From positions 1 to 39,816 of the forward strand of contig CALVGN010000043.1 of the NCBI GenBank assembly GCA_944327105.1: a stretch of 39,816 bases of DNA. The letters run 5' to 3'. The notes below the pieces were generated by a model, which was not told the DNA's origin, made no database searches, and saw only the letters and a list, made by a program, of their open reading frames with translations. This document shows, piece after piece, positions 692-16,546 of the stretch (the first letter of the stretch is position 1; the number at the start of each line of letters is the position of its first letter). A program made the translations under genes and the position numbers. This DNA is from an uncultured Erysipelotrichaceae bacterium. GTDB lineage: Bacteria; Bacillota_I; Bacilli_A; Erysipelotrichales; Erysipelotrichaceae.

Positions 692-2011
692 ATGAATTTT
701 CTGACTGCAGACATTTCACAACTCTATCGACGCTTTCTTATTGCATCCTTGGGTAGTGCGGTGGTGGTATCCATCTACAGTTTTGTGGATACAATCGCCA
801 TTGGTCAATCGGTTGGACCGTTGGGTACGGCAGCCATTGCTGCCATTAATCCCTTGTTCGGTGTAACAGCAGTTTTTGCCATACTTTGCGGTATTGGCGG
901 ATCGGTATTGTGTACCCATACCAAGGCAGAAGGTGATCAGACCAAAGGCAATGAATACTTTACTGTAGCCTTTGTCATGATGAGTATCATCACCCTTCTT
1001 TTATGGATTATCTGTTTTCCGTTGAGCAAACAGATCTTTACATTATTCGGTTCGGATTCCTCCACACTGCCGTATGCCATGGAATACGGTAATCTGATCA
1101 TCCTGGGTATTCCTGCATTTACCTTTTCTTCATTTCTAGCGGCATTCATTCGCAATGACGGGGCACCGTCATTGGCGATGAAAGCTGTGATCATTGGTGG
1201 ATGTCTGAATGTATTTGGAGACTGGTTCTTCTGCTTTCCACTGGATATGGGTATGTTTGGGGCAGCATTGGCAACGGTGCTTGGCACCGTATTGCAGACC
1301 CTGATACTTATTTCTCACTTCTTTAATCGGGAAATGTGCACATTACGTTTGGTCAAACCACACCATCCATGGATGATGATCAAAAAGATCATCACTACTG
1401 GATTTGGTTCGTCCATTTTAGATCTTGGTACCGTCGTATTGGCCGTATTGATGAATAATCAGATTTTACGTTATGGAGGGGTGGATGCTTTAAGTGTCTA
1501 TGGGGTACTTAGCACCATCGCTGTTTTGTTTCAGGCATTGTTTTCCGGTGTCGGACAGGCGGTCCAGCCTTTGTTATCGGCCAACTATGGTGCAAAGAAA
1601 CTAAATCGAATCATGGTGATTTATAAATTTGCCATGGTGACTATCATTACTATGAGTGGGACGTTCATCCTTATATCTGAGTTACTCCCGGTACAGATCG
1701 TATCCCTGTTTACGATGGTGACACCATCGATCGTTGAACTGACACCAAGGATTTTTCGACTCTATTCACTGTTATATCTTGGTTTGGGAATCAATGTATT
1801 GGCAACATACTATCTGCAATCCACCATGGCCAATAAAGGCGCCATGCTGATTGCTGTATCAAGATCCATTGTGGTTTCATCCATCTTATTGGTGGTTTTA
1901 CCATTGATCTTTAAACTTAATGGCGTCTTATTGGCCATGCCGATCAGCGAAACATTGATCATGGTGGTATCTTTATTTTTTATCCATCGGCGTAACAAGA
2001 CGATTCGATAA
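692..2011 (+). CDS. MATE family multidrug/cation efflux transporter
   Basis: A 439-residue, very hydrophobic protein with about twelve membrane segments in two homologous halves, the usual length for the family. The start MNFLTADISQLYRRFLIASLGSAVV resembles bacterial MATE proteins, with the first helix running into VDTIAIGQSVGPLGTAAIAAINP, the typical MATE loop and helix 2. MATE proteins sit in the cytoplasmic membrane and export cationic drugs or metabolites using a Na+ or H+ gradient. The ATG at 692 follows a strong GGAGGGG ribosome site. The gene stands alone, with the remnant IS upstream and hipA downstream. Its substrate cannot be read from the sequence. Three TGGTNNNACCA dyads (1350, 1716, 1893) mark it as native DNA. 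Confidence 0.9.
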   Translation: MNFLTADISQLYRRFLIASLGSAVVVSIYSFVDTIAIGQSVGPLGTAAIAAINPLFGVTAVFAILCGIGGSVLCTHTKAEGDQTKGNEYFTVAFVMMSIITLLLWIICFPLSKQIFTLFGSDSSTLPYAMEYGNLIILGIPAFTFSSFLAAFIRNDGAPSLAMKAVIIGGCLNVFGDWFFCFPLDMGMFGAALATVLGTVLQTLILISHFFNREMCTLRLVKPHHPWMMIKKIITTGFGSSILDLGTVVLAVLMNNQILRYGGVDALSVYGVLSTIAVLFQALFSGVGQAVQPLLSANYGAKKLNRIMVIYKFAMVTIITMSGTFILISELLPVQIVSLFTMVTPSIVELTPRIFRLYSLLYLGLGINVLATYYLQSTMANKGAMLIAVSRSIVVSSILLVVLPLIFKLNGVLLAMPISETLIMVVSLFFIHRRNKTIR

Positions 2012-2209
2012 TCCAAACGATCCTATTTAACGATTGCATACTTTTTGACTAGCTTGAACCACGTCGACTTTATTCGTCTTTTTGTCCTATGTAAGCTTGC
2101 TTATTTTACGTGAAAATTTTGCATGTCAAGATTTCAACTGCCATTGATTTTGGATAGGCTATGGATATGCGTGCAAATTGTAAATCAAGATTAATGAAGG
2201 GTGGTTAGG

Positions 2210-3337
2210 ATGAGAGATATCAATACGGTCGAAGTCTATTATCAAAATCAAGTTGTTGGTCATTTAAAACTAACGACGTCGCAACAGGTGTCGTTTCAAT
2301 ATGACTCTGATTGGATTGAATCCGGCTTTTCAATCAGTCCGTTTTCGCTTCCGTTGAAACCGGAAATATTCATTCCTAAAAATCCGTTTACTTTTGATGG
2401 CTTGTTTGGTGTTTTTGCGGATAGCTTATCGGATGGGTGGGGTCACTTATTGACTGATCTTAAACTCAAAGCCGACGGCAATGATGTGGACTCATGTAAC
2501 AAGCTTTATCGCTTTGGCTGGATTGATCATAATGGTCTAGGTGGTCTTGAGTATCGGCCACGCTTTAATTTGGTTAAACCGTGGACTGCGTTATCGCTTG
2601 ATAATCTGGCAATGGAAAGTACAACGTTGTATCAAAAGGATGTCTGCAAACATCTGGATGAGTTGTTTTATAGTTCAGGAAGTTGTGGTGGCGCACAACC
2701 GAAAGCCAATATATTTATGGAACGAGCATTATGGATTGTGAAGTTTCCGACGGCATTGCACGATCGAATTAACGGATTAATGGAATACCAATACATGCAA
2801 TGTGCTCAAGCCTGTGGTATTAACGTACCACCATTTCAGTTATTGCCCAGTAACTGGTGTGATGGTTATTTTGCGGTCAAACGATTTGACCGCAAAAACA
2901 ACCAAAAAATACATATGATTTCATTGGCAGGTCTATTGGAAACGTCGCATCGCATCCCAAGTCTGGATTATCTAGATATATTCAAAGTCATCGCTTTGCT
3001 TACACGGGATATCCGGGAAAGCGAAGAAATGTATCGCCGTATGTGCTTTAATGTCTTTGCTCATAATCGCGATGATCATTCCAAAAATTTTGCTTTTCTT
3101 TATGATGAAAGGCAAAACCGCTATACGCTTAGTCCAGCATATGATCTGACTTATAGTAATTCGATAGGGGGAGAACATGCCACGACCATTGATGGAGTAG
3201 GAGATCACCCTGGACTCAATCAGCTTCTAAGTGTTGCAAAAATAGTTGGATTAAACGAAAAATGGGCCAAACAGACAGCTCTGGATATCCAGCAGAAAGT
3301 TTTGACCCAATTAAATCGATGGTTAAATCATCGGTGA
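2210..3337 (+). CDS. HipA-like serine/threonine kinase, no HipB seen
   Basis: A 375-residue HipA-fold protein. The N-terminal part (about residues 1-100) has the HipA N1 pattern FSISPFSLPL and GLFGVFADSLSDGWG. The kinase part shows GSCGGAQPKA (P-loop), IVKFP, the FAVKRFDR element, the catalytic NRDDHSKNFAF and the LSPAYDL metal-binding motif, so it looks catalytically intact. HipA proteins phosphorylate translation targets such as glutamyl-tRNA synthetase and cause growth arrest when HipB is absent. I chose ATG 2210, which has GAAGG about 9 nt upstream; an in-frame GTG at 2201 is the alternative. No HipB-like helix-turn-helix gene lies on either side. The gene holds no TGGTNNNACCA dyad, unlike its left neighbour, which suggests acquisition. 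The DNA from 2012 to 2209 shows no gene. Confidence 0.85.
   Translation: MRDINTVEVYYQNQVVGHLKLTTSQQVSFQYDSDWIESGFSISPFSLPLKPEIFIPKNPFTFDGLFGVFADSLSDGWGHLLTDLKLKADGNDVDSCNKLYRFGWIDHNGLGGLEYRPRFNLVKPWTALSLDNLAMESTTLYQKDVCKHLDELFYSSGSCGGAQPKANIFMERALWIVKFPTALHDRINGLMEYQYMQCAQACGINVPPFQLLPSNWCDGYFAVKRFDRKNNQKIHMISLAGLLETSHRIPSLDYLDIFKVIALLTRDIRESEEMYRRMCFNVFAHNRDDHSKNFAFLYDERQNRYTLSPAYDLTYSNSIGGEHATTIDGVGDHPGLNQLLSVAKIVGLNEKWAKQTALDIQQKVLTQLNRWLNHR
2869..2897. repeat. Perfect 13-bp inverted repeat with 3-nt loop inside hipA
   Basis: TTTTGCGGTCAAA (2869-2881), loop CGA, then the exact reverse complement at 2885-2897. It encodes the conserved FAVKRFDRK segment of the kinase, so part of the symmetry may be forced by the protein (VKR/FDR codons are naturally complementary). 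Confidence 0.9.
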
Positions 3338-3781
3338 TCAGATGATTTTGATAATAGTGGAAGCATGTGGAGGAATGGTTACGGTCAAAGTATTATTAGC
3401 CCATTCATAATTCATTTCATTCATCAGAAAATCTATGGATTGCGCATTATCCAAATTGATCTGAACCACTTCGTTCTGTTCAGCACAGCTCATGATGGTC
3501 AAAACACGTCGATGATTTCCCTGACGGATATAACCAAATACGGTATTGGTCAAAACCACTGTCCTACTGGTTCCACTGAAGGCATCCATATGCTTTTTGC
3601 GAATGTCCAGTAATTTCAATATATGCTCATAAATCGAAATATCCAGATTCAACCATTCATTCAAGTCCAATGCCGGGCGCAGTGAGTCATCACTGCCCGG
3701 CATTTTCTTTCCATGGATGCCAAATTCACTGCCATAGTAGACACTGGGAATACCATAAGCGGTAAAAATATAGGTATACAC
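3338..3781 (-). pseudogene. C-terminal part of GH13 glycoside hydrolase, split by IS200/IS605
   Basis: Minus-strand reading from 3781 gives VYTYIFTAYGIPSVYYGSEFGIHGKK, the conserved end of the GH13 TIM barrel, then a C-terminal beta domain ending PPHASTIIKII. It continues the N-terminal part at 5806-6711: joining DLFKK to VYTYIF restores the normal family spacing with no lost codon. An internal ATG cannot rescue activity because catalytic regions I-IV are all on the other fragment. A quasi-palindrome at about 3669-3704 (AATGCCGGGC and GCCCGGCATT around a second small stem) lies in this fragment. Confidence 0.85.
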
Positions 3782-3960
3782 AGTGAACCACTCGGCTACA
3801 AGTAACCGAGCTTCCAGCCTTTTTGACAGTAGTCATAAAGGCCATCTTTTATTCCTGCTTGGCCGGGTGACATATTATGGCATAGTTTTGGCCATGCGCC
3901 CCGTAGTTCAACAGGCTAACCCCGGTGTCCCACCGGTTTATATTACGGCTAGTTATGCCG
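3782..3960 (-). ncRNA. Predicted TnpB guide RNA (omega RNA) scaffold region
   Basis: In IS200/IS605 elements the TnpB guide RNA comes from the 3' end of tnpB plus the right end, with the guide read from DNA just outside. Here 170 nt lie between the tnpB stop (3953) and the right end. They contain CCGGTG-TCC-CACCGG (3922-3936), CGGCTAGTTATGCCG just before it, and the terminal hairpin 3791-3810. The present guide would be the GH13 sequence starting at 3781. Position and extent are inferred from the family, not directly shown. Confidence 0.45.
3791..3810 (-). repeat. Right-end subterminal hairpin of the IS
   Basis: CTCGG (3791-3795) and CCGAG (3806-3810) around CTACAAGTAA. The left-end hairpin differs at only one loop base. 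TnpA recognises such imperfect hairpins at both ends of IS200/IS605 elements. Confidence 0.75.
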
Positions 3961-5146
3961 CTTCAGAACAGTTCTTCAGATAGAGTCGCATCCCTTCGTT
4001 CAGAATATTGACTGCCGCCTGATGATCGCGTGCCATCGCATTTCCGCATTGGGGGCAGACGAATTGTCGGTCAGATAACTTCAATTCTTTATGTACATGC
4101 CCGCAAGCGCAACATGTTTTACTGGACGGGAACCAACGACTTGTGCGGATAATGGTGCAACCGTACCAGTCAGCTTTATAGTCCAACATGCGAGTGAACA
4201 TTCCCCAACCGTTATCACTGGCAGATTTTCCAAAAGAGAGCGACCTTTTGATTGCTGCCATATCAAGATCCTCAATGCATATCAAATCATACTGTGTTGT
4301 CAGGGCATGGGACTGCTTATGCAGGAAATCGGTCCGCTGATGCTTGGCTTTCGCATGCAGTTTCGCGATTCGGATCTTTTGTTTTTTATAATTATTGGAA
4401 CCCGGCTCCATCTGTGAAAGACGGCGCTGTTCGCGTGCAATTTTGATAGCTATCTTTCGATATGGTTTTGGGTATGAAGGTGTATTACCATCAGAGTCAA
4501 CATACAGTTCCGGAAGGGACATATCGAGTCCGATAGCCTTGATTTCACTGTGGTCTTTCTCCTTCGCTGTTTTAGGAACTTCTATTTTGGGATATTCGAA
4601 AACCAGAGAGAAGTACCATTTTCCGTTTGGTTCATGCGTCACGGTGCAATTTTTCAGGATTCCACCAGGTCGAATCTTCCGGTGCAGTCGGAGTTTGATT
4701 GGGTTCTTTATTTTTGGCAACTTCAACAGGCATCCGTCTAAAAATAGATTCGGGTTTTCTCTGTTTGCAAGATTTGTTGTGTAGGAATCTTTACAGGAAT
4801 GCTTCTTTTTGAACTTCGGATAGTTGGTTTCACCGTCAAAGAATCCATTGATCGCTTGGATAAATCGAAGTTGCACGTTAGCTAGGCATAAAGAATCCAT
4901 GTCGTTGAGCCACTCTAAACCCGACTCTTTTTTATAGGCGGCCGGCGTCTTTACCGGATCGGATTTACCTTTTTCTTCAAAACTGGTTATCCAGTCTGCC
5001 AGCATCCGATTCCATAGAAAGCGTGCCGCACCGATGAACTGGCGAAGTTTTTGTTCTTGATCTGCATCTGGACGGCCTTCAAACCGGTATGCACGTTGTT
5101 CAGTCGGCCCTGTATTGCCTCTTTGTGTAAGAAAATCTCTTGCCAT
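3953..5146 (-). CDS. tnpB: TnpB RNA-guided endonuclease of the IS200/IS605 element
   Basis: About 397 residues with the usual TnpB order. The N-terminal helix-turn-helix/WED region is RAYRFEGRPDADQEQKLRQFIGAARFLWNRML. The split RuvC domain has GLDMSLPELYVD (catalytic Asp), ICIEDLDM (catalytic Glu) and ARDHQAAVNIL (catalytic Asp). Between the last two is a zinc finger, CCACGHVHKE...FVCPQCG. All catalytic residues are present. TnpB cuts DNA matching its guide RNA beside a short target-adjacent motif, which helps the element survive its own excision. I chose ATG 5146, preceded by AGAAGGGG about 8 nt upstream; the frame stays open to 5275, overlapping tnpA, so a longer form is possible but lacks homology. 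Confidence 0.9.
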   Translation of the reverse strand: MARDFLTQRGNTGPTEQRAYRFEGRPDADQEQKLRQFIGAARFLWNRMLADWITSFEEKGKSDPVKTPAAYKKESGLEWLNDMDSLCLANVQLRFIQAINGFFDGETNYPKFKKKHSCKDSYTTNLANRENPNLFLDGCLLKLPKIKNPIKLRLHRKIRPGGILKNCTVTHEPNGKWYFSLVFEYPKIEVPKTAKEKDHSEIKAIGLDMSLPELYVDSDGNTPSYPKPYRKIAIKIAREQRRLSQMEPGSNNYKKQKIRIAKLHAKAKHQRTDFLHKQSHALTTQYDLICIEDLDMAAIKRSLSFGKSASDNGWGMFTRMLDYKADWYGCTIIRTSRWFPSSKTCCACGHVHKELKLSDRQFVCPQCGNAMARDHQAAVNILNEGMRLYLKNCSEAA

Positions 5147-5262
5147 ATGACTGCCCCTTCTAACTAAATAAATGCAGTGTGTAATACCTGACATGTCCAC
5201 CAGGATTACAGTTTCTGATTGTTGATTCTGTTGGAATGAACGTGTATTTGTTACGTACTTTT

Positions 5263-5673
5263 TTATAGTTGGCAATTTTTCTGCCTTTCAATATATTGTA
5301 AAATATTTTCTTCTGAGGTTGAGCCAATGGCTTCGCAGAAGTAAGAACCGTTCCAAAGCTGGCCTTTCCATAATGATTTCCGGATTTCAGGGAATTCCTT
5401 GAGAAGCAAATTGCCACTTATTCCTTTCAGGTACTTTACAATTTGGGTAACCGAGAGTTTTGGAGGAGCTGACACAAAGCAATGTACGTGATCGGTATCA
5501 CCAACTTTGCATTCGGCTACAGAAAACCCCTTTTCAACAGCAATCAGGCTGACCAATTCAAATAACCTGTTACTAATTTCGGGCGTCAGTACTTTTCTAC
5601 GATATTTGACGCACCATATTATATGATAATTGATGTTGTATACGCAGGTCCTTGCGTGTGTGTATTTATCCAT
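5263..5673 (-). CDS. tnpA: IS200/IS605 Y1 (HUH) transposase TnpA
   Basis: 136 residues, the normal size for Y1 transposases. Visible are YNINYHIIWCVKYRRKVL at the N-terminus, the HUH metal-binding motif in DTDHVHCFVSAPP, the KYLKGISGNLL helix and the C-terminal LWNGSYFCEAIGSTSEENILQYIERQ, which carries the tyrosine nucleophile region. It nicks and rejoins single-stranded element ends at the subterminal hairpins. It precedes tnpB on the same strand. The protein looks intact, so the element may still move. Confidence 0.92.
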   Translation of the reverse strand: MDKYTHARTCVYNINYHIIWCVKYRRKVLTPEISNRLFELVSLIAVEKGFSVAECKVGDTDHVHCFVSAPPKLSVTQIVKYLKGISGNLLLKEFPEIRKSLWKGQLWNGSYFCEAIGSTSEENILQYIERQKNCQL

Positions 5674-5770
5674 ACATATAGTATAACAAAGTTCACCGAA
5701 AATTACATTATTTACCTATATTTATTTGCAGCACCTAGCAGATGGAAAAGTTGTATTTTACATGCTTTCA

Positions 5771-5792
5771 TCTCGGATACAAGTAACCGAGA
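5771..5792 (-). repeat. Left-end subterminal hairpin of the IS
   Basis: TCTCGG (5771-5776) and CCGAGA (5787-5792) around ATACAAGTAA, matching the right-end hairpin at 3791-3810 except for one loop base. Confidence 0.75.
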
Positions 5793-5805
5793 ATTCCCGC
5801 CTGCT

Positions 5806-6711
5806 CTTCTTAAACAGATCCCGTGGATCATTGAGCTGGTCAATGATCCGTGTGACATCATGATTATCGGCAAAGGTGACCAATGGGATGTTTCGACATA
5901 GACCATATGGACCATAAAGTCGATCCTGATTATGGGCGAGTTCAAAATAATTACGGCTGTTAAGGGAAGAATAGATGGCTTTATGCAAGACATAATTGGT
6001 CAATGTATCCAATTCACTGGATTGGATGATATGACCATAATCTCCATGGATCACTTCACCCAGCATGATAAAACCATCCTTACATTGGTTGCACCATGCT
6101 TTCAATTCCTTTAAGAATTGAAAGTCCATCACATCTGCACTGTCTAATCGCATCCCATCGATATCATAGGTTTCGATCCAGTATTTTGCGACCTCGAACA
6201 AATAGTGTTTGACGTCGGGATGGGTTAGATTCAAATCCACCAGATCCTCGATGCCTCGCCATCCCTGGTAACTGAATGGATCATGATGGGCATTTGTATT
6301 ATTAAAGTTTACATCCTTAAACCAGCAAACATAGTTTGAGTGCTCGCGATGCACCAGTAGATCTTTAAATGCAAAGAATTCTCGAGAAACATGGTTGAAT
6401 ACGGTATCTAAAATAACCTTGATCCCATAACCATGGGCTTTATCCACCCATTTGCGAAAATCTGCGTTACTTCCAAGTCGACCATCCAGTTGAAAATAAT
6501 CCACTGTATCATACCCATGGCTCAAGGATTGAGCCATGGGTCCGATCTGGATCGTATCAAATCCCATTTCATGGATATGGTCTAACCATTGATCCAGGAT
6601 ATCAAAACGATTCATGTTGGTTTGGTCATGCAATGCATTGGTTAGACCAAGGGGATACAGATGATACAGTCCGATGATTTCATTAAGACGTTTATTCATG
6701 GTTTTAACCAT
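5806..6711 (-). pseudogene. N-terminal part of GH13 alpha-glucosidase/alpha-amylase, split by IS
   Basis: Minus-strand protein with the GH13 barrel motifs in order: DTVFNHVS (region I), GMRLDSADV (region II, nucleophile Asp), GEVIHGDY (region III, acid/base Glu) and FADNHDVTRI (region IV). The reading frame runs about 16 codons into the IS left end and stops at 5758. The rest of the barrel and the C-terminal domain are at 3338-3781. The intact enzyme would have cut alpha-1,4 glucans, probably in the cytoplasm since no signal peptide is visible. Start candidates are ATG 6711 (GGAG 6 nt upstream), ATG 6699 and TTG 6723. The gene carries three dyads (6578, 6639 and a 4-nt-spaced one at 6699). 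The insertion looks recent because both halves are otherwise open. Confidence 0.85.
6513..6541. repeat. Perfect 13-bp inverted repeat with 3-nt loop in the GH13 gene
   Basis: ACCCATGGCTCAA (6513-6525), loop GGA, exact reverse complement 6529-6541. It encodes PMAQSLSHGYDT on the minus strand, between barrel strands. Confidence 0.92.
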
Positions 6712-6730
6712 CCTTCGCTCCAATCCATTG

Positions 6731-6736
6731 TATACT
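6731..6736 (+). promoter_or_regulatory. -10 box of the ThrE gene, leaderless spacing
   Basis: TATACT ends 7 nt before ATG 6744, with TTG just upstream of the box. No Shine-Dalgarno is present, so transcription would start at or next to the A of the ATG. The opposite strand reads TATACA at the same place, so the divergent GH13 gene may share this AT-rich core. Confidence 0.5.
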
Positions 6737-6743
6737 GAAAGTC

Positions 6744-7538
6744 ATGGAAACCAGGATGGATTTGACCCATGTCAATTATGATGAACTGGCGCGTATCATC
6801 ACCAAGGCCGGCATCATCTTGCTTCAAAACGGTGCGGAAACGCACCGGGTCGAAGATACGATGATGCGCCTTGCTAAAGCTTATGGTGCAACCAGTTGTG
6901 ATGCGTATGCCACCCCTACGTTATTGATCGTATCCTTCAAAGTCGACAGTACGATCAATGATCGGTTGTTGCATAACATCAAACGGGTGCATATGGCTTC
7001 AACCAATCTGGATAAGATCGAAAAAGTGAATGCTTTGAGTCGATCAATCGTCAGTGATCCATTACCTATTGAAATCTTTGAACAGCGATTGGATGAAATC
7101 GATCAAGCGAAAGGCTATGGTTTGACCATCCGCATGTTGGCCGCATTACTTTGTTGTTTTGCGTTTGGTTTATTTTTTAAAGGAACGATCGCTGATGCGT
7201 TTGCTTCAGCAATCGTGGGTGTGGTGGTTGAAACCACTGTATCTTTGGTTTCAACCATTTCTTTTTCCTCTTTTTTTACCAATATGCTTGGTTCTTCCAT
7301 TGCGACTTTATTCGCGCATTTGATGGCAATGGTTTTACCAGTAAATCCAGATATCGTCATCATCTCTTCCATTATGCTATTGGTTCCAGGTTTAGCGATG
7401 ACCAATGCCATTCGGGATTCAGTATCAGGTGATCCCGTGTCCGGGATCACCCGGTTATGGGAAGCGTTGATGGTGGCCATTGCCATAGCAGCTGGGTCTG
7501 GTTTGACCATGTTGCTTTTATCGGGGGTGGGATTATGA
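6744..7538 (+). CDS. Threonine/serine exporter ThrE, N-terminal (DUF1212) subunit
   Basis: 264 residues. The soluble N-terminal half carries the DUF1212 signature GIILLQNGAETHRVEDTMMRLAKAYG, and about five membrane helices follow from residue 125. The family motif LVPGLAMTNAIRDSVSGDPVSGITRLWEAL near the end is typical of ThrE-like exporters, which remove threonine and serine from the cytoplasm by proton antiport. In this organism the protein is split: the small membrane partner follows with an ATGA overlap (7535-7538), so the two are translationally coupled and should act together. A GGTGATCCCG inverted repeat with a 4-nt loop lies at 7428-7451. Four dyads are present (6884, 7118, 7330, 7499). 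Confidence 0.88.
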   Translation: METRMDLTHVNYDELARIITKAGIILLQNGAETHRVEDTMMRLAKAYGATSCDAYATPTLLIVSFKVDSTINDRLLHNIKRVHMASTNLDKIEKVNALSRSIVSDPLPIEIFEQRLDEIDQAKGYGLTIRMLAALLCCFAFGLFFKGTIADAFASAIVGVVVETTVSLVSTISFSSFFTNMLGSSIATLFAHLMAMVLPVNPDIVIISSIMLLVPGLAMTNAIRDSVSGDPVSGITRLWEALMVAIAIAAGSGLTMLLLSGVGL

Positions 7539-7957
7539 TCATTACGGCACTGAGCAGTGCGTTGGCATCGGCAGCGTTTGGGCTATTGTTCAATGTACCC
7601 TATTCCCAATTGATATTGATCGCATTGGTCGGGTTATCCGGAGGGATCGTGTATGGAACACTGTTGATGGTTTCATCCACTTACCTGGCCTTGTTTGTGG
7701 CCAGCAGTGTGATCACTTTACTTTCCGATATCATGGCCCATCGGTTTCGTATCCCGACCATTACCTTTTTGATCTGTGCCTTGATCCCATTGGTTCCAGG
7801 GGGTGGTTTGTACTATACGATGCTGGAAGTGATCAATGGAACGATCAATGGGGCATTGATCAAAGGCGTGGACACGATCGTCCAAGCGATTTGTATCGTC
7901 TTTGGAGTGGTATTGATCAGCGGGGTCATGGGGATGGTCCGGTCCATAAAAAAATAG
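7535..7957 (+). CDS. ThrE-type exporter, C-terminal (DUF3815) membrane subunit
   Basis: 140 residues, almost entirely four or five membrane helices, with LIPLVPGGGLYYTMLEVINGT, the conserved motif of the DUF3815/ThrE_2 half. It is the partner of the gene before it, overlapping its stop codon by ATGA. An upstream in-frame start at 7457 lies within the previous gene and is unlikely. Both halves together make the usual ten-helix ThrE transporter. Confidence 0.87.
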   Translation: MIITALSSALASAAFGLLFNVPYSQLILIALVGLSGGIVYGTLLMVSSTYLALFVASSVITLLSDIMAHRFRIPTITFLICALIPLVPGGGLYYTMLEVINGTINGALIKGVDTIVQAICIVFGVVLISGVMGMVRSIKK

Positions 7958-7969
7958 CAGGTAAGCATA

Positions 7970-9217
7970 ATGAATGGAAATCCATTGAAAGTAAATGATA
8001 TAAAAACCACGCTCATCTTGGGATTATTGGTGGTTTTGACCAGTGTCTTGGTGGCATTGATCGAAGTCATTTTTTCCTATGGGATTACGTTGGTTACCAC
8101 CATTCGGATCAATACCCTATCTGTTTTATGGATGCTGGCACTACCAATAGTTGGATGGTTGATCTTGAAAATCTATCAGCATACGCATGCATCCACCATG
8201 GATGTCATGGGTGCATTGTTCGATATTTACCATTACAAAGATCGAAAACTTCCATTGATATTGATCCCATTGGCAGTAGTGAGCACATGGCTGACCCATC
8301 TATGTGGTGGTTCAGTTGGACGCGAAGGGGTCGCGGTGCAAGTGGGTGGATTGATCGGGATGAACATTGGTTCGACCATTTCATCCTTTAATATCACGCA
8401 TAAACGGATATTGGTCTATTGTGCGATGGCTGCCGGCTTTGCTGGCTTGTTCCTTACCCCTTGGACAGCGATGTTTTTTGTGCTAGAGATCGCGATATCG
8501 GGGATGGTGGATACCATGTTATTGATCCCTTGTGGGTTTTCGGCATTTATTGCATCCATGGTCGCATCATGGTGTGGATTGCATCCATTTACCTATGGTT
8601 TGACCATCACCGGTATGGATTGGACCATGCTGATCGATATCATTTTGATGAGTATCCTCTTTGGTTTGATCGGGGGATGGTTTGGTCGAAGCATCCATTG
8701 GATCCATGATCATTTGACGCGTTTATTCCATGGTCATACCACAAAAATGATGGTGATCATGGCATGTGTGATCGCTATCATCATGGTATTGACCAACGGA
8801 CGTTATGCCGGATTATCGACAGATCTCGAACATGCGGCATTTCGTGGGGAAGTATATTGGTTTGATTTTCTCTTCAAATTTGGTTTGACCAGTCTATGTC
8901 TTGGTATCGGGTTAAAAGGTGGTGAAGTGGCACCATTATTTGTCATTGGTTCCACCCTGGGTGCATTTTTGGCATCGTTATTGAATATTCCGGTGGAATT
9001 TGGTGCAGCGTTGGGCTATATCTGTGTGTTTGCTTCCGGAACCAATACATTGATCGCACCGATGTTTTTAGTCGGGGAATCGTTTGGTTTTGCCAATGTC
9101 CCTTTCTTCGCCTTTGGAGTGATCATCGCCTATGCATTCAATTTCAACCACAGCATCTATACCCATCAAACCAGTATCAATCGATTGCTGGATGAAAGGG
9201 AAAAGAAGGATGGTTGA
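7970..9217 (+). CDS. CLC-family anion/proton antiporter, probably fluoride type (CLC-F)
   Basis: 415 residues with about ten or more membrane segments in the CLC arrangement. The gating glutamate is in GSVGREGVAVQVGGLIG: the residue after GREG is Val, not the Pro of chloride-type CLCs. The later pore motif reads GLKGGEVAPLFVIGSTLGA rather than GxFxP. From family knowledge, GREG(T/V)xVQ and KGGEVxPLF are typical of CLC-F proteins, which export fluoride in exchange for protons. That assignment is inference. The gene lies 12 nt behind the ThrE pair and is probably cotranscribed. ATG 7970 has only a weak AGGTAAG site. Confidence 0.8.
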   Translation: MNGNPLKVNDIKTTLILGLLVVLTSVLVALIEVIFSYGITLVTTIRINTLSVLWMLALPIVGWLILKIYQHTHASTMDVMGALFDIYHYKDRKLPLILIPLAVVSTWLTHLCGGSVGREGVAVQVGGLIGMNIGSTISSFNITHKRILVYCAMAAGFAGLFLTPWTAMFFVLEIAISGMVDTMLLIPCGFSAFIASMVASWCGLHPFTYGLTITGMDWTMLIDIILMSILFGLIGGWFGRSIHWIHDHLTRLFHGHTTKMMVIMACVIAIIMVLTNGRYAGLSTDLEHAAFRGEVYWFDFLFKFGLTSLCLGIGLKGGEVAPLFVIGSTLGAFLASLLNIPVEFGAALGYICVFASGTNTLIAPMFLVGESFGFANVPFFAFGVIIAYAFNFNHSIYTHQTSINRLLDEREKKDG

Positions 9218-9232
9218 ACCAGTGGAATCGAT

Positions 9233-9238
9233 TATAAT
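9233..9238 (+). promoter_or_regulatory. -10 box of the gene at 9245, leaderless spacing
   Basis: Perfect TATAAT ending 6 nt before ATG 9245, with no ribosome site between. A TGGTTGAACCA dyad sits at 9211-9221, in the region where a -35 element would be. Confidence 0.6.
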
Positions 9239-9244
9239 CTTGGT

Positions 9245-10189
9245 ATGAAACGTGCGTTATATGGTTTGACCACCGTATCCTTTATGCTGATGCTCAACCA
9301 TGCTTATCTGACCAATGTTCCCTTTAAGAATCATCTTGAATTATCGGATTATCTGCTAGTGTATGCCAGCAATGATTTATCCCAGGATGTGTTGATCATC
9401 GAAACGTATGATCAAAACCATCAATTGATCGATGTTGGTCAATATAAGGCAGGGGATGCATGGGTGAGTCAGATCAATGATGATCATCTGATCATTCTTG
9501 GCGGTGGTCAAACCATTCTGATCGATCTGGATAATGGCAACGTCAGTAAAGTGGATGGTTCATACCATATCGCGGATGGCAATGATATCACCAATCAATT
9601 CGTGGTGAGCGATACGCGCAACATCTATGGTACAGTCGTGGATGTTCTGTGTGTGATGGATCAGTTTCCACTCGGAGCAAATTGTTCGTGTGTGGATTCT
9701 GATTATTGGATATCGGATATACTCCTGGATGGTCAAACCATCTATACCCTGGTCAGGGATGATACGACGCATCGTGTTTTAGCTTATGACGCTGAAACAT
9801 TAAAAAAAATTGAAAGTTTTCGATTCGATGACGATGGTTTAACCATTGTAGGAATCGACGTCAACCACCATCTTATCGTTGAAAATCAAACCGGAAACTG
9901 GATCGATGTAATGAACAATATGTTCATCGATCCAAAATCGACTCAATTGATCAAAGCAAGTGATCCTGCAGATCTTCTTTATGATTCTTTTGAGCAATTC
10001 AATACTATCGATACGATATATCATGGTGTGGTTGCAACGATCGATCATCATGGAGGCTTAGTGGCATTCTTTGATGCGGATAACCTGTCCGCTTCATCAC
10101 TGCTGTATCATGCAAACGATCCGGCTTCCCGTTATCCTTGGTTTAACCTTCGTATGATCGGCGCGGTGTGGACCGGTGAGAAACCATGA
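9245..10189 (+). CDS. Hypothetical exported or membrane-anchored protein
   Basis: 314 residues, not recognised. The N-terminus MKRALYGLTTVSFMLMLNHAYL is a signal peptide or anchor, and the rest is soluble and predicted outside the cell. It has recurring beta-rich units with DGQTIYTLVRD, DHLIILGGGQTILIDLDNG and HRVLAYDAETLKKIESF, which read like the strands of a WD/PQQ-type beta-propeller; that fold is a guess. It contains one cysteine cluster (GANCSCVDS). It has its own -10 box and is probably leaderless, so it may not belong to the transporter operon upstream. It is rich in dyads (9262, 9505, 9730, 9835). Confidence 0.7.
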   Translation: MKRALYGLTTVSFMLMLNHAYLTNVPFKNHLELSDYLLVYASNDLSQDVLIIETYDQNHQLIDVGQYKAGDAWVSQINDDHLIILGGGQTILIDLDNGNVSKVDGSYHIADGNDITNQFVVSDTRNIYGTVVDVLCVMDQFPLGANCSCVDSDYWISDILLDGQTIYTLVRDDTTHRVLAYDAETLKKIESFRFDDDGLTIVGIDVNHHLIVENQTGNWIDVMNNMFIDPKSTQLIKASDPADLLYDSFEQFNTIDTIYHGVVATIDHHGGLVAFFDADNLSASSLLYHANDPASRYPWFNLRMIGAVWTGEKP

Positions 10190-10296
10190 TATAACCATCG
10201 CGACACGTGGATGCTTGAGATGAACAGGCGTGTGTTGTAACATATGGCATGTGTTTATCTTAAGCAAGCATTAGCATGGTTCGATCATTTCTGATT

Positions 10297-10320
10297 CCTG
10301 ATCATCCGTATCAGGGTTTT
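10297..10320 (+). terminator. Weak Rho-independent terminator
   Basis: CCTGAT (10297-10302) and ATCAGG (10310-10315) form a 6-bp stem followed by GTTTT, between the hypothetical gene and prfA. The stem is short, so read-through is possible. Confidence 0.4.
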
Positions 10321-10325
10321 ATCTA

Positions 10326-10356
10326 TGGTTTGACCATCTATGCTATGGTTCTACCA
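10326..10356. repeat. Tandem pair of TGGTNNNACCA dyads before prfA
   Basis: TGGTTTGACCA (10326-10336) and TGGTTCTACCA (10346-10356), centres 20 nt apart (about two helical turns), ending 31 nt before the prfA start. TTGACC inside the first copy and TACCAT at the end of the second are 16 nt apart and could serve as -35 and -10 boxes. The pair may therefore be part of the promoter or an operator. Confidence 0.6.
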
Positions 10357-10387
10357 TTTCCATCATTATCAAAGGAGAAACCGAATT

Positions 10388-11479
10388 ATGAGTGAAACCA
10401 ATCCCATTGTTGAAAAATGTGCACAGATCGAAAATGAATATAATGCCATCAATGATCAATTGATGTCCCCGGAAGTCTTATCCGATCCCAAAACGATGAC
10501 CCGTTTGGCAAAAAAACAGGCATCTTTGAAACAAATCGTGGATGAATATCAATTGTATAAAAAGTATGCATCCCAAAAAGAAGATGGTTTAACCATGTTA
10601 AATGAAGATGATGCTGAACTTAAAGAAATGGCCAAGATGGAAATCGAAGAAGCAGATTCCAAACTCCCCGAGATCCTTGATCGTCTTCAAGTCTTATTGA
10701 TCCCGAAAGACCCGGAAGACGATTGTGATGCCATCATCGAAATCCGTGGCGGCGCTGGCGGTGATGAAGGCAATATCTTTGCCGGCGACTTATATCGCAT
10801 GTATACGATGTATGCCGAGAAAATGGGCTGGAAGATCCAACCCTTGGAACAAAGTGAAAGCGAAGCCGGTGGCTTTGCTTTGATCTCGGCGTTGATCAAA
10901 GGCAATGATGTCTACCATCATCTGAAATATGAAAGTGGCACCCATCGCGTGCAGCGTGTTCCGAAAACCGAATCTCAGGGACGGATCCACACTTCCACTG
11001 CTACGGTTTGGGTCTATCCCAACGTGGAAGATCTGGACAGTGAAGAATTCGATATTCCCGAAAGTGATTTGACCATCGAAACCCATCGCGCTTCGGGTGC
11101 CGGTGGGCAGCATATCAATAAAACCGATTCCGCGGTCCGTATCGTCCATGTGCCCACCGGCATCACCGTCAATTGTCAGGATGGTCGAAGCCAGATCGAA
11201 AACCGGGAAACCGCATTGCGTTTGATCAAAGCCAGAGTCTATGAACAGATGAAGGCGGAAAAGGAAGCCAAAGAAGGTGCGGCACGTCGCAGCAAGATCG
11301 GTACCGGGGATCGCAGTGAAAAAATCAGAACGTATAATTATCCCCAGAATCGGGTTACCGATCATCGGATTGGTCTGACCATCAATCAATTGGATCGGAT
11401 CATGGATGGTAAACTCGATGCCATCATCGATGGTCTTTTGCAAGAAGAGCAGCGTCAGAAATTGGAAGGACAACAATAA
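10388..11479 (+). CDS. prfA: Peptide chain release factor 1
   Basis: 363 residues, normal for RF1. The codon-recognition region HRVQRVPKTESQGRIHTS contains the PxT tripeptide that reads UAA/UAG. The catalytic GGQ lies in SGAGGQHINKTDSAVRIVH, and the glutamine there is the residue methylated by PrmC, encoded next. RF1 releases finished polypeptides at the ribosomal peptidyl-transferase centre. ATG 10388 is preceded by AAAGGAG; an upstream in-frame ATG at 10340 adds 16 residues without homology. The TAA stop shares its last A with the prmC ATG, a tight coupling of the factor with its modifying enzyme. Confidence 0.97.
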   Translation: MSETNPIVEKCAQIENEYNAINDQLMSPEVLSDPKTMTRLAKKQASLKQIVDEYQLYKKYASQKEDGLTMLNEDDAELKEMAKMEIEEADSKLPEILDRLQVLLIPKDPEDDCDAIIEIRGGAGGDEGNIFAGDLYRMYTMYAEKMGWKIQPLEQSESEAGGFALISALIKGNDVYHHLKYESGTHRVQRVPKTESQGRIHTSTATVWVYPNVEDLDSEEFDIPESDLTIETHRASGAGGQHINKTDSAVRIVHVPTGITVNCQDGRSQIENRETALRLIKARVYEQMKAEKEAKEGAARRSKIGTGDRSEKIRTYNYPQNRVTDHRIGLTINQLDRIMDGKLDAIIDGLLQEEQRQKLEGQQ

Positions 11480-12342
11480 TGCCAACGTATCAGCAAGTGG
11501 TACAGCAAGCTCGCAAAGATTTGGCGCATACAAATGCCAACGATCAGGAAATCATGTTATTGATGAATGATCTGTGCCGAGACCATGGGATCAATCTTTA
11601 TGCCGAATATGTAAGAGAAGCGGATCCACAGATCGTGGAGTGGTTCGACCAAGGGTGCAAACGTTTAGCACAGAATGAACCATTGGATTATATCCTGGGT
11701 TATACCGAATTTTATGGATATCGGTTTAAAGTGGATCCAAGGGTTTTGATCCCTCGACCGGAAACGGAAGAGTTGGTATTGCATGCACTAAAAACCATCG
11801 ATACAGTTTTCGATGGTTATACCAGCATTGATGTGGCGGATATCGGATGTGGTTCCGGAGCCATTGGTTTATCTGTTGCGTTGGAAGAACCACGCGTGAA
11901 ACTGGTTGCCAGTGACATCAGTGATGATGCATTGGAAGTGGCAAAGATCAATGCCAAGGCATTGCATGTCGATGCATCGTTTTATTGCGGGGATATGGCC
12001 AAACCATTGATGGAAAATGGTATTAAGGTGGATATGATCCTATGCAATCCACCGTATATTCCAGCTGATGAGACCATGGAATCCAGCGTCATTGATTATG
12101 AACCCCATGTGGCATTGTTTGGTGGAAGCGACGGGTTGAAGTTTTATCGCTCGGTATTGATGGATGCTAAATCCATCCTCAAAGGCGAAGGTCATCTTTT
12201 ATTTGAAATGGGATATAACCAAAAGGAAGCATTGAGTGAACTGGTTCAAACCATCAATCCCAATGCGACGGTTGAATGTTTTAAAGATATCAATGGAAAG
12301 AATCGGATTCTTTGGGTGAATATGCATTATGGAAATCGTTAA
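11479..12342 (+). CDS. prmC: Release factor glutamine methyltransferase
   Basis: 287 residues. The N-terminal helical domain ends in LDYILGYTEFYG. The Rossmann SAM-binding site is VADIGCGSGAIGLSVA, and the active-site motif NPPYIPADE binds the substrate glutamine. The enzyme methylates the GGQ glutamine of RF1 and RF2. It overlaps prfA by one base and tsaC by 14 bases, so the three genes form one translationally coupled operon. Confidence 0.96.
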   Translation: MPTYQQVVQQARKDLAHTNANDQEIMLLMNDLCRDHGINLYAEYVREADPQIVEWFDQGCKRLAQNEPLDYILGYTEFYGYRFKVDPRVLIPRPETEELVLHALKTIDTVFDGYTSIDVADIGCGSGAIGLSVALEEPRVKLVASDISDDALEVAKINAKALHVDASFYCGDMAKPLMENGIKVDMILCNPPYIPADETMESSVIDYEPHVALFGGSDGLKFYRSVLMDAKSILKGEGHLLFEMGYNQKEALSELVQTINPNATVECFKDINGKNRILWVNMHYGNR

Positions 12343-12889
12343 GGAAAGTGAAATCAAAACCATTCACCAATGGTTAGACCATGGATATCCGTTGGCTTTG
12401 CCAACGGATACCGTATATGGATTGATCTTAAAAGCAACCAACGACAATGAGTATGTGTTAAAACAGATCAAAAACCGACCTGAAGATAAACCATTACCGA
12501 TGGTGGTATCCAGTGTCGAAGAACTGTTGAATCTGATCGAAGTGCCGCAATCCCATCTATATGTGGTTTATGATTATTTACCCGGTGGTTTGACCATCGT
12601 TGGTAAAGCCAAAAAAGATTATGGTCATACCACGTTAGCTGTACGTGTTCCCGATAAACCCTATTTATTGGAAAGTCTAAAGGGTATTGGCCCTTGTTGG
12701 TTGACCAGTGCGAATTTATCTGGAGAACCTGCATGTTTTACAGTGGATCAAGTCAAGGAAAGACTGAATGGTCGGATCGACTATATCGTGGAAGGACCAT
12801 GTAAGGATAATGTGGCCAGTACCATCGTTTCTTTTGTCGATGGTTCACCCAAGATACTGCGTCAAGGTGCAGTGGTTTTACAATTCTAA
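12329..12889 (+). CDS. tsaC: L-threonylcarbamoyladenylate synthase (YrdC/Sua5 domain)
   Basis: 186 residues, single YrdC domain. LALPTDTVYGLI, KNRPEDKPLPMVV, PGGLTIVGKAK, LAVRVPDKPYLL and GPCWLTSANLSGEP are the standard TsaC motifs for ATP, threonine and bicarbonate binding. It makes threonylcarbamoyl-AMP for the t6A37 modification of ANN-decoding tRNAs. It starts inside the 3' end of prmC and is followed by a strong terminator, so it closes the operon. A perfect 11-bp palindrome covers the segment encoding PLALPTD. Confidence 0.95.
   Translation: MEIVKESEIKTIHQWLDHGYPLALPTDTVYGLILKATNDNEYVLKQIKNRPEDKPLPMVVSSVEELLNLIEVPQSHLYVVYDYLPGGLTIVGKAKKDYGHTTLAVRVPDKPYLLESLKGIGPCWLTSANLSGEPACFTVDQVKERLNGRIDYIVEGPCKDNVASTIVSFVDGSPKILRQGAVVLQF
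12386..12410. repeat. Perfect 11-bp inverted repeat with 3-nt loop in tsaC
   Basis: TATCCGTTGGC (12386-12396), loop TTT, exact reverse complement 12400-12410. A TGGTTAGACCA dyad lies just before it at 12371-12381. Confidence 0.9.
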
Positions 12890-12894
12890 AGAAT

Positions 12895-12933
12895 ACCGTC
12901 AGGGATCATTACGATCCCTGACGGTTGTTTTTG
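12895..12933 (+). terminator. Rho-independent terminator after tsaC
   Basis: ACCGTCAGGGATC (12895-12907) pairs with GATCCCTGACGGT (12913-12925) around a 5-nt loop, followed by TGTTTTTG. Confidence 0.9.
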
Positions 12934-12983
12934 TTTCGAATCGATTTAAAAGTGTTGATTCAATCCATGACGGTGGATTTTGA

Positions 12984-12989
12984 TATAAT
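12984..12989 (+). promoter_or_regulatory. Extended -10 promoter of pepV
   Basis: TGATATAAT gives a perfect TATAAT at 12984-12989 with the TGn extension. Transcription should begin near 12996, giving a leader of about 65 nt before pepV. The leader holds a dyad (13029-13039) and a four-codon frame ATG GAA CGA TGA at 12998, probably accidental. Confidence 0.6.
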
Positions 12990-13060
12990 TTGAATCAATG
13001 GAACGATGATGAATGACTCTGGTTTTTATGGTTGCACCATTCATCACTCAAGGAGGAAAT

Positions 13061-14443
13061 ATGGATAAAAAACTGATTGAATCCCATGTGGATCATTATA
13101 TGGATGAACTATTGTTTCGTTTAAAGGAAACGGTGGCTTACCCATCGGTATCGGAATATGATCCCAATAATAATGAAAATCCCTTTGGGATCACGTGTAC
13201 CCAGTGTTTGAACCATGTATTGACATATGGGGAACAGGATGGTTTTACCAGTGTCAATGTGGATAATTATGCCGGTTATATCGAAATGGGGATGGGTGGT
13301 AAGACCATCGGTATCTGTGGTCATCTCGATGTGGTACCGGCAGGGGATGGATGGAACAAAGATCCCTATGATACGACCATTGAAAACGGTGTGGTCTATG
13401 GTCGAGGTGTCGCGGATGACAAGGGTGCGGTCATTGCAGCATTGACCGCAATGAAAGTCATCCGCGACATGGAGATCCCATTAACCAAAAAGATCCGTCT
13501 GATCATGGGCATCAATGAAGAAAAAGGATCCCGTTGTTTGACCCATTATGTCCAAAAGTACGGATCAGTGGATTATGGATTTACTCCGGATGGTGATTTC
13601 CCGGTGATTTTCGGAGAAAAAGGCATGGTTGGGGCATCATTCGCTGGAAAAAGTGCGTCCATCAAATCCATTGAAGGTGGAACGGTATCCAATGCGGTAT
13701 GCTTTAAAGTCAAGGCGGTCATCACGGATGCCAATCTGGATATCAAAGCATTGACGCAGTATTTTGATGATGCACCCGTAAGTTATACGTTAAGTGCGTT
13801 GGATGATGGTTTGACCATCGAAGTCATTGGTAAAAGTGCCCATGCATCCTTACCCCATCTTGGGATCAATGCCATCGCTTATTTGATGGATGGTTTATAC
13901 CACAGTGGGTGTAAAGATGAATTCGTATTGTTTTACCATGATGTTTTTGGCATGAGTACCAATGGAAGTACCAGTGGTATTTATTGTCGGGACCAATATG
14001 GTGAATTGACCATGAATAACGGGTTGATTTCCATGGATGAAAATGGTTTGATCCATGGCTCCATCGATATCCGTGTTCCGGTTCAATGTGATCCAAACGA
14101 AGTAGCGGACAAGCTGGCTAAAGCCAGTTGCCATGGTGTGACCATCGATATCATCGATACCGTCCACTCTTTATACTATGATCCATCTTCTCCCTTTATC
14201 CAAAGCTTATTGAAAGCCTATCGGGATATTACAGGGGATACGGAAAGTGAACCGATGGTGATCGGTGGAGGAACGTATGCCAAGGAAATCAATAATGTCG
14301 TCGCATTTGGATGTGCATTCCCCCATGACTACCCCTATAACCTGCATGACGTCAATGAAAGTGTACCGGTATCCGAATTAAAAGCACAAGTGATGATCTA
14401 TGTGCAGGCGATATTGAATTTATTGGCATTAGAGGATCATTGA
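13061..14443 (+). CDS. pepV: PepV-type dipeptidase (M20 metallopeptidase)
   Basis: 460 residues. Metal-binding motifs of the M20 family are visible: GHLDVVPAGDGW (His, Asp), VYGRGVADDKGAVIAAL (bridging Asp), MGINEEKGSRC (catalytic Glu and metal Glu), FTPDGDFPVIFGEKG, and IGGGTYAKEINNVVAFGCAFP near the C-terminus. PepV is a cytoplasmic zinc enzyme that cleaves dipeptides including Xaa-His and beta-Ala dipeptides. ATG 13061 follows AAGGAGG; the frame is open upstream to 13013 but that extension is unlikely. The next gene follows almost at once (GAGG of its ribosome site lies in the pepV end), so the two are an operon. Confidence 0.93.
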   Translation: MDKKLIESHVDHYMDELLFRLKETVAYPSVSEYDPNNNENPFGITCTQCLNHVLTYGEQDGFTSVNVDNYAGYIEMGMGGKTIGICGHLDVVPAGDGWNKDPYDTTIENGVVYGRGVADDKGAVIAALTAMKVIRDMEIPLTKKIRLIMGINEEKGSRCLTHYVQKYGSVDYGFTPDGDFPVIFGEKGMVGASFAGKSASIKSIEGGTVSNAVCFKVKAVITDANLDIKALTQYFDDAPVSYTLSALDDGLTIEVIGKSAHASLPHLGINAIAYLMDGLYHSGCKDEFVLFYHDVFGMSTNGSTSGIYCRDQYGELTMNNGLISMDENGLIHGSIDIRVPVQCDPNEVADKLAKASCHGVTIDIIDTVHSLYYDPSSPFIQSLLKAYRDITGDTESEPMVIGGGTYAKEINNVVAFGCAFPHDYPYNLHDVNESVPVSELKAQVMIYVQAILNLLALEDH

Positions 14444-14445
14444 GC

Positions 14446-15285
14446 ATGGATACTGGTAAAAAAGTGGCGATGATCTATGACTTTGACAAAACACTCTCGC
14501 CACGGGACATGCAAGAGTATCAATTACTGGCTTCTCTTGGTTATACCAATGCCATCGATTTTTGGTCTAAAGTCGGCCAACAGACAGAAATGAATCGAAT
14601 GGATCCGATTTTATCCTATATGTTGATGCTGATGAAAGAAGCGGATGCATGCGGCAGACCGTTGAATCGGGACATGTGGGAAAGCTATGGTCGATCCATC
14701 GAATTCTTTGACGGTCTGCCGCAATGGTTCGACCATATCAATTCCAAAGGAAAATCCCTTGGTTTGACCATCGAACACTATGTCATTTCCAGTGGATTAT
14801 ATGAGTTGGTTTCCTACAGTGCCATTGCGCCGTATTTAAAAAAGATCTATGCCTGTGCGTATGTCTATGATGAGCATGGTCAAGCCATCTGGCCCGCCAA
14901 TGTGGTCAACTATACCACCAAGACCCAATATATCTTTCGTATCAATAAACAAGTACTGGATATTTCCAATGAAGCGGATCTGAATGCCTATACTCCAAAG
15001 GAAAAACGACCGATCCCGTTTGAACGGATGATCTATATCGCGGATGGGTATACAGATGTACCGGTGTTCAAACTGATCAAAGAGTATGGTGGGACCAGTA
15101 TCGGCGTGTACTCCAAGGATGAACATGTGGTCCGTCAGCTCTATGCAGATGGTCGGCTCAATGCCTATGTGAAAGCGGACTATACAGTCGGCGGTGAGTT
15201 GGACCATTACATGGATATGGTGCTCAACAATATCCGTTATTTCGAATCATTGAATGACTATATGCACACGAATAAGGAGGTTTAG
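14446..15285 (+). CDS. HAD-superfamily phosphatase
   Basis: 279 residues. MIYDFDKTLSP near the N-terminus is HAD motif I with the DxD nucleophile and acid. HYVISSGLYEL carries the motif II serine, and RMIYIADGYTDVPVF is the motif III/IV DGxxD end. The long insert between motif I and II is a C1-type helical cap, as in phosphoserine-phosphatase-like proteins. The substrate is unknown. ATG 14446 was chosen over TTG 14440. It is followed 2 nt later by a flavin-reductase-like gene. Confidence 0.85.
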   Translation: MDTGKKVAMIYDFDKTLSPRDMQEYQLLASLGYTNAIDFWSKVGQQTEMNRMDPILSYMLMLMKEADACGRPLNRDMWESYGRSIEFFDGLPQWFDHINSKGKSLGLTIEHYVISSGLYELVSYSAIAPYLKKIYACAYVYDEHGQAIWPANVVNYTTKTQYIFRINKQVLDISNEADLNAYTPKEKRPIPFERMIYIADGYTDVPVFKLIKEYGGTSIGVYSKDEHVVRQLYADGRLNAYVKADYTVGGELDHYMDMVLNNIRYFESLNDYMHTNKEV

Positions 15286-15287
15286 TC

Positions 15288-15842
15288 ATGGTTCAAACAT
15301 TCGATCCCAAGCATTCCATCATCTGTCCCGAAGGGGTATTCATCATTGGTACCTATGATGAAAACGGTGTTCCCAATGCGATGAATGCCGCATGGGGCAT
15401 CCAAAGTGATTATGGTCAGATCACCTTATATCTGGACGAACACAAAACCACAGAAAATCTGAAAAAGACCAACGCCTTCACGGTAGCATTTGGCACGGTA
15501 GATACATTGGTCATCTCCGATTATTTCGGCATCGAATCCGGCTTTAACGTCAACAAGATCGAAAAGGCCGGTTGTCATGTCCATCCCAGTACTGTGGTCA
15601 ATGCACCGATCATTGAAGAATATCCCGTTACCTTGGAATGCAGTGTATTCGATTATAACGATGATACCGGGATATTGGTCGGAAATATCGAGTCCATGGT
15701 TGCAGATGAGCGTGTATTGACGGATGGTAAGGTGGATTATGACAAACTCAAACCCATTATCTTTGATTGTTCCACCAATACGTATCGACTGATCGGACCA
15801 GTAGTGGGTAAAGCATTCAATGATGGTAAAACCATCCAATAA
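15288..15842 (+). CDS. Flavin reductase-like FMN-binding protein
   Basis: 184 residues with the split-barrel flavin reductase fold: GVFIIGTYDENGVPNAMNAAWGIQSD at the N-terminus, then TLYLDEHKTTENLKKTNAFTVAFG and SDYFGIESGFNVNKIEKAG. Members bind FMN and reduce flavins or small substrates with NAD(P)H; the physiological partner cannot be told from sequence. A strong AAGGAGG site lies 6 nt before ATG 15288, inside the end of the HAD gene. Confidence 0.85.
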   Translation: MVQTFDPKHSIICPEGVFIIGTYDENGVPNAMNAAWGIQSDYGQITLYLDEHKTTENLKKTNAFTVAFGTVDTLVISDYFGIESGFNVNKIEKAGCHVHPSTVVNAPIIEEYPVTLECSVFDYNDDTGILVGNIESMVADERVLTDGKVDYDKLKPIIFDCSTNTYRLIGPVVGKAFNDGKTIQ

Positions 15843-16523
15843 ATGAAAAAACCATTGGAACCAATGATTGAAATCGAAGGAATCCAAATCAAAACGTATG
15901 GACCACAACGTGGTCCATACGTGATCGTCAACACGGTTTTAAAAGATGGAGCCACCATCTTCAATATGATCAAAACCATGTATACCCAACCATTTGAACT
16001 GATTTGTCTGGATGTTTTAAACTGGAACGATGATCTTTCACCATGGTTTGCACCACGTTTATTCAAAAATGATACCGATTGCGGTGGTCAAGCCGATGCA
16101 TATTTCCAAAAGATGATGTGTATTATGGATGAAGTGATCCCAGATGGTTCGACCACCATCATCGCTGGTTATTCTTTGGCTGGATTGTTTGCTTTATACA
16201 GTGGCTATCAATGTGATCGGTTTTCCGGGATCGTTTGTGCTTCGGGTTCATTGTGGTTTCCACGATGGATGGAGTATGTGAATGGTCATACCATTTCACC
16301 TTCTGTCAAAGCCATCTATTTTTCGCTAGGAGACAAAGAAAGCCAAACGAAAAATCCATTCTTTCAGAGAACCCAAAACAATACTGAACAGTTGAATCGG
16401 TTCTACCACGATCAGGGGATCGAAACCATTTTTGAACTCAATCCCGGGAATCATTTCGTTGACAACGAATTGCGTTTGGCGAAAGGGATCGCTTGGATAC
16501 TTCGATATTTTGAAATGTCATAA
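15843..16523 (+). CDS. Alpha/beta-hydrolase (esterase-like)
   Basis: 226 residues. IIAGYSLAGLFALYSGYQ holds a GxSxAG nucleophile elbow. The later FSLGDKESQTKNPFF gives a candidate acid (Asp), and LNPGNHFVDNE a candidate catalytic histidine, in the order expected for the triad. The layout resembles enterochelin-esterase-like and acyl-esterase proteins. No signal peptide is present. The ATG immediately follows the TAA of the previous gene with no ribosome site, so translation must be coupled. Confidence 0.75.
   Translation: MKKPLEPMIEIEGIQIKTYGPQRGPYVIVNTVLKDGATIFNMIKTMYTQPFELICLDVLNWNDDLSPWFAPRLFKNDTDCGGQADAYFQKMMCIMDEVIPDGSTTIIAGYSLAGLFALYSGYQCDRFSGIVCASGSLWFPRWMEYVNGHTISPSVKAIYFSLGDKESQTKNPFFQRTQNNTEQLNRFYHDQGIETIFELNPGNHFVDNELRLAKGIAWILRYFEMS
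15894..15922. repeat. Perfect 13-bp inverted repeat with 3-nt loop in the hydrolase gene
   Basis: ACGTATGGACCAC (15894-15906), loop AAC, exact reverse complement 15910-15922, encoding TYGPQRGPYV. A second palindrome (CATTGG AA CCAATG) lies just upstream at about 15853-15866. Confidence 0.93.
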
Positions 16524-16546
16524 ACGAATATATGACCAGATGAAAA

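Follow-up and report, generated by a model that had tools for sequence, protein, structure and literature searches.

An interrupted, helix-phased palindrome abundant in one Erysipelotrichaceae-like genome and scarce in alien and conserved genes

The dyad and the genes of the window

The window, that is, the whole stretch of 39,816 nucleotides that was analysed, carries the genes and elements collected in Table 1. An earlier note on this DNA had divided it into segments rich in and free of a dyad that was left unspelled, and we have identified the word by matching the boundaries of these segments. They are all reproduced by TGGTNNNACCA, copies of which start at 1893, 6578, 33119, 36079 and 37879. 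A scan of the window for gapped palindromes gave TGGT-3-ACCA as the single outstanding word, and TGGTNNNACCA was found 74 times, compared to 3.4 expected. HIP1, GCGATCGC, was ruled out as the dyad, with one copy in the window. The same word with a 4-bp spacer constitutes an equally real class.

Table 1. Features of the window and their dyads; copies are of the 3-bp-spacer form unless indicated.
Feature	Position	Strand	Dyads and remarks
Segment	1..1903		3 copies
MatE-family transporter, native	692..2011	+	1350, 1716, 1893
"Empty" segment	1904..6577		1 copy (6086); 4-bp spacer, 3547; mixture of native and inserted DNA
HipA-like kinase (HipA_C + Couple_hipA)	2201..3337	+	none; single copy in the sampled genome
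Alpha-amylase-type gene, 3′ part, severed by insertion	3338..3781	-	4-bp spacer, 3547; no Pfam match alone
IS605 OrfB / TnpB-like gene	3953..5275	-	none
IS200-type Y1 transposase TnpA	5263..5673	-	none
Alpha-amylase gene, 5′ part	5758..6723	-	6086, 6578, 6639
Exact dyad TGGTTGCACCA	6086..6096		within the amylase gene
Dyad-rich resident stretch	6578..18960		41 copies; ca 11 with 4-bp spacer
Segment	18961..33129		21 copies
ychF	20587..21690	+	0; one with 4-bp spacer, 21390
ftsH	24636..26495	+	24725, 26453, close to the two gene ends; AAA domain 0
Segment	33130..36078		0 copies
lysS end, conserved, C-terminal tRNA_bind domain	33130..34124	+	none
PIN_3 / RelB toxin-antitoxin pair	34247..35024	-	none; in a stretch of GC 0.36
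HlyIII/trhA-like gene	35366..36034	+	4-bp spacer, 35611
Segment	36079..37890		8 copies
FemAB gene end, GCAA tract (38634-38694), DUF4368 fragment (recombinase C-terminal type)	37891..39816		0 copies

The IS200/IS605 element (ca 3790-5760) interrupts the alpha-amylase gene. When the insert is skipped, an open frame connects the two parts of the gene, and dyads are present in both of them. Close to both edges of the element (window 3338-6723) there are near-identical palindromes, CTCGG(C/A)TACAAGTAACCGAG. Elsewhere in the window, lysS with its C-terminal tRNA_bind domain (32178-34124) has near-full-length matches among the relatives only at loci L109 and L110, and in the best long alignments it is ca 69% identical to the relatives (named Erysipelotrichaceae and Solobacterium sp.). 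Just past the FemAB gene end lies an AGCA/GCAA tetranucleotide tract of ca 15 units, which is possibly a phase-variable or repeat-peptide tract.

The earlier note had stated that the segments 1904-6577 and 33130-36078 and the DNA after 37890 contain no exact copy. This is correct for the latter two as far as the 3-bp spacer is concerned, while in the first one the copy at 6086 had been overlooked; the first two also contain one 4-bp-spacer dyad each. The count of about 40 given for the dyad-rich stretch agrees with ours. The suggestion that the dyad-free segments look acquired is not cleanly borne out, since in 1904-6577 only HipA and IS200/IS605 are plausibly foreign, and 33130-36078 is a composite that opens with the conserved lysS and includes the dyad-bearing trhA-like gene. 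The lack of dyads in the AAA core of ftsH stands; for ychF, also said to have none, it stands for the 3-bp form but not for the 4-bp form.

With a genome mean of 1.36 per kb for the 3-bp class, the probability of at most one copy in 4674 bp is 0.013, that of none in 2949 bp is 0.018, and that of none in 1926 bp is 0.07. Each dyad-poor segment of the window is thus, taken singly, weakly significant. Genome-wide, gaps of at least 1926 bp number 138, compared to 151 from a Poisson distribution, which means that the shorter segments prove little one by one.

Genome-wide abundance and depletion

The assembly that contains the window is Erysipelotrichaceae-like, 1.61 Mb in size and 97% complete. It has 2182 copies of TGGTNNNACCA, compared to 93 for a reversed-pattern control, and the 4-bp-spacer dyads add ca 940, such that the two classes together amount to ca 3,000. 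In the spacer spectrum, which like the other anatomy counts covers 1.554 of 1.615 Mb read in stretches, gap 3 has 2106 copies and gap 4 has 941, to be compared with ca 112 expected, and the remaining gaps are near background. No comparable enrichment of TGGTNNNACCA was found among 59 relatives. The extended form ATGGTYNRACCAT occurs 532 times in this genome (control 0), with no enrichment elsewhere: the maximum is 7 among 273 family genomes and 6 among 295 genomes drawn from the phylum. Among the sampled genomes the dyad is confined to one gut-type bacterium. One relative, of which 800 kb were scanned, gave no other lineage-specific dyad (z at most 5.5, compared to 160 here), and neither did nearby loci. 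Dyad-rich viruses were ruled out as well, as the 117 viral stretches that contain a phased pair have a chance-like density.

The logo is symmetric, aTGGTY..RACCAt, and beyond ca 3 flanking bp there is little information, which argues that the copies are not a dispersed repeat or a spread element. Half-sites adjoining the dyads recur at 21±1 bp, within genes as well as between them. Intergenically, TGGT at +9/10/11 is found 21/43/27 times, compared to ca 6 expected, and codon structure can thus not be the cause of the phasing. Half-sites with one mismatch are weakly enriched, and this is restricted to particular bases in a way that resembles binding tolerance. While 83% of the dyads are located within genes, the gap-3 density is higher in short intergenic spacers (3.0-3.9 per kb for each of the three classes of orientation) than in genes (1.35 per kb). 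There is no preference for promoters, as divergent and convergent spacers are both rich.

Scoring the density over the whole genome reveals that islands and core genes are both depleted relative to other DNA. Using a simple codon-usage ORF caller, in which the class "alien" denotes codon usage and not an independent annotation, the alien genes were found to have 3 dyads in 31 kb (0.1 per kb) where 63 are expected (P ~1e-23). This supports, as a general statement, the proposal that the motif marks long residence. Also the proposal that protein constraint limits its spread is supported, since the density falls with conservation (Spearman -0.25, P=2e-6), from 2.5 per kb at <35% identity to 1.3 per kb at >50%. 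IS605-type reading frames contain no dyads genome-wide, with 4.9 expected.

Stretches of at least 4 kb with neither dyad class number 27, compared to 1.06 expected when dyads are placed at random (no more than 4 in any of 200 trials). By GC content, 15 of these are lower (102 kb) and 12 are higher (62 kb). The lower-GC ones that were sampled carry genes of defence type, namely Type I R-M and DISARM, a Type II methylase accompanied by a helicase, a STAND NTPase and a dynamin-like gene, and the sampled higher-GC ones contain the ribosomal L2 operon, V-ATPase, Lon, phosphoglucomutase and transport genes. A 21-kb dyad-free island at C25:4176-25294 (L040, L088) comprises DISARM drmA and drmD, a C5 methylase and a dynamin-like GTPase gene.

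DNA thus lacks the dyad either because it arrived recently or because protein constraint keeps the dyad out. Because core genes are deserts too, the motif alone cannot separate the two causes, and a second criterion, codon usage or GC, has to be added. The expectation that the motif could date insertions is too strong, since at 2 dyads per kb an insert of 1-3 kb is indistinguishable from chance. Together with codon usage, the dyad density serves to pick out multi-kb islands of this genome, and using a motif as an island marker has been done earlier with HIP1 in Synechococcus (PMC3025956).

Effect on the encoded proteins

Codon usage could be ruled out as the cause of the dyads. Synonymous shuffling within genes lowers the dyad counts from 1723 to 314 and from 846 to 237, and shuffling all codons lowers the count to ca 40. 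The main form encoded by the dyad, Gly-x-Thr, occurs 2914 times, compared to 1724 expected (+69%), which ranks first among 400 spaced residue pairs; no over-use of Thr-x-Gly was seen in the same comparison. Other over-used pairs in the predicted proteins are Leu-x-Gln (1891 vs 1478) and Trp-x-Asn (326 vs 186).

Both residues match the orthologue of a relative in 16% of the dyad-coded Gly-x-Thr, compared to 34% of the other Gly-x-Thr and 32% of the Thr-x-Gly, which indicates that the dyads arose through protein change. The mean identity to the relative is 39% for dyad genes vs 42%, a gap that is too small to account for the twofold drop. The dyad shows thus a pressure at the DNA level that overrides the choice of amino acid.

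Possible causes and known systems

We now turn to what could maintain these sites. The two half-sites, the helical phasing and the indifference to transcription suggest a dimeric protein that binds double-stranded DNA, and the 21-bp phasing, which is also present intergenically, points to cooperative binding. That the dyad is bound by a DNA-binding protein of the lineage's own, one that is abundant, dimeric and sequence-specific, is a reading that we consider slightly better than an even bet. Such a binder would be a nucleoid-associated or self-marking protein acting on aTGGTY(N1-2)RACCAt, in part cooperatively on pairs of sites spaced by two turns of the helix. The sites would form in place by point mutation, and a high site density would benefit the cell, such that they would be retained up to the limit of protein function; recently arrived DNA would have yet to gain them. 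We infer the protein binding, its being favoured and its role from these patterns. A bolder proposal, to which we give somewhat less than even chances, is a genome-wide chromatin-like or self-marking code, in which the abundant dimeric protein would occupy the ca 3,000 dyads, partly as phased pairs, and the maintenance of the sites would have reshaped the proteome.

The core of the dyad is that of the PdhR box, AATTGGTnnnACCAATT (core GGTnnnACC), recognised by GntR/FadR-type regulators (PMC7660256), and the binder might therefore have such a fold. Of the five GntR genes in the genome, one is FCD-type, i.e. FadR-like (C27:11315-12157), with no close homologue in the dyad-free relatives, the best match having 29% identity. 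This protein seems to be without the Arg residues usual in the FadR recognition helix, which counts against it. A LysR-like group of seven DNA-binding paralogues is also found in the genome. Against a binder in general count the lack of promoter preference, the two spacer lengths, which are unusual for a rigid dimer, and the fact that ordinary regulation hardly accounts for selection on ca 3,000 sites so strong that amino acids are replaced.

An alternative that we regard as unlikely is that mutation or conversion is simply biased towards the dyad, a Chi-like or nuclease-protection drive being among the possible forms of this, and that the individual sites give no benefit. The even distribution in resident DNA, the disregard of gene orientation and the replaced amino acids would all be consistent with such a strong push; however, a recogniser of eight fixed bases would still be required, and the phasing implies a bound complex regardless. 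Selection for an RNA hairpin in transcripts (stem AUGGU/ACCAU, loop 3-4) appears very improbable: loops of 3 and 4 fit tight hairpins, but loops of at least 5 are not favoured, sense-strand variants that preserve wobble pairing are not consistently favoured, dyads are plentiful in divergent as well as convergent intergenic DNA, and 21 bp is a distance of the double helix.

Two further options come from the known systems. For cyanobacterial HIP1 it has been proposed that a DNA methyltransferase recognising the sites, together with methyl-directed mismatch repair, makes and keeps them. The gap-3 density here, ca 1,350 per Mb, falls inside the HIP range of 1,000-2,000 per Mb, and, like a HIP, the dyad is palindromic, arises in place and is seldom found in alien or ribosomal genes (PMC4390886, PMC3025956). 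However, the two spacer lengths and the phasing are unexpected for a methylase, and the option is disfavoured, indeed quite improbable in our judgement, because the DNA methylases that were found (HsdM, a DISARM-linked C5 enzyme and a Type II enzyme) all lie in dyad-free islands. A motif scan of the genome, which can miss atypical enzymes, gave no candidate for a resident methylase; the Type II methylase at C52 was overlooked by it and found with PADLOC. The other option is that competent cells favour dyad-carrying DNA, by which dyads would accumulate as uptake sequences. The dyad matches DUS/USS (PMC2397512) in its density and placement in genes and in that it avoids recent genes and prefers permissive positions, but known DUS/USS are directional, whereas the dyad is palindromic with two spacers. 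Moreover, ComEC (PF03772) was not found in this genome. A search of 25 family genomes gave no match above cut-off either, while it is present in all 16 genomes of a sister family. Uptake is disfavoured because of this absence, and we give it very little credence. With neither a resident methylase nor a competence channel found, the two leading explanations can be set apart here.

Compared to the GntR operators of the PdhR/FadR type, the dyad has an identical core, TGGTnnnACCA (PMC7660256), but lacks the promoter or regulon location; instead of tens of sites there are ca 3,000, mostly in genes, and there is the additional 4-bp-spacer class. Like the DUS/USS of Neisseria and Pasteurellaceae, it is abundant at permissive core positions and missing from recent genes (PMC2397512), and unlike them it is palindromic, has two spacers and resides in a Bacillota-type lineage with a host that has no ComEC. 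The closest likeness in kind is to HIP1 and the alternate HIPs of cyanobacteria, that is, thousands of short in-gene palindromes that are made in place, lineage-bound and low in alien and ribosomal genes (PMC4390886, PMC3025956). The abundance and in-place formation seen here agree with this, but the host is no cyanobacterium, no resident methylase was found in it, and where a HIP is an uninterrupted GC-rich palindrome, the dyad is not GC-rich, has 3 or 4 free bases as spacer and is phased by 21 bp. The dyad is thus HIP-like in distribution and evolution, but of a new sort, interrupted, two-spaced and helix-phased, and as a sharply lineage-bound motif it bears on the question of HIP function.
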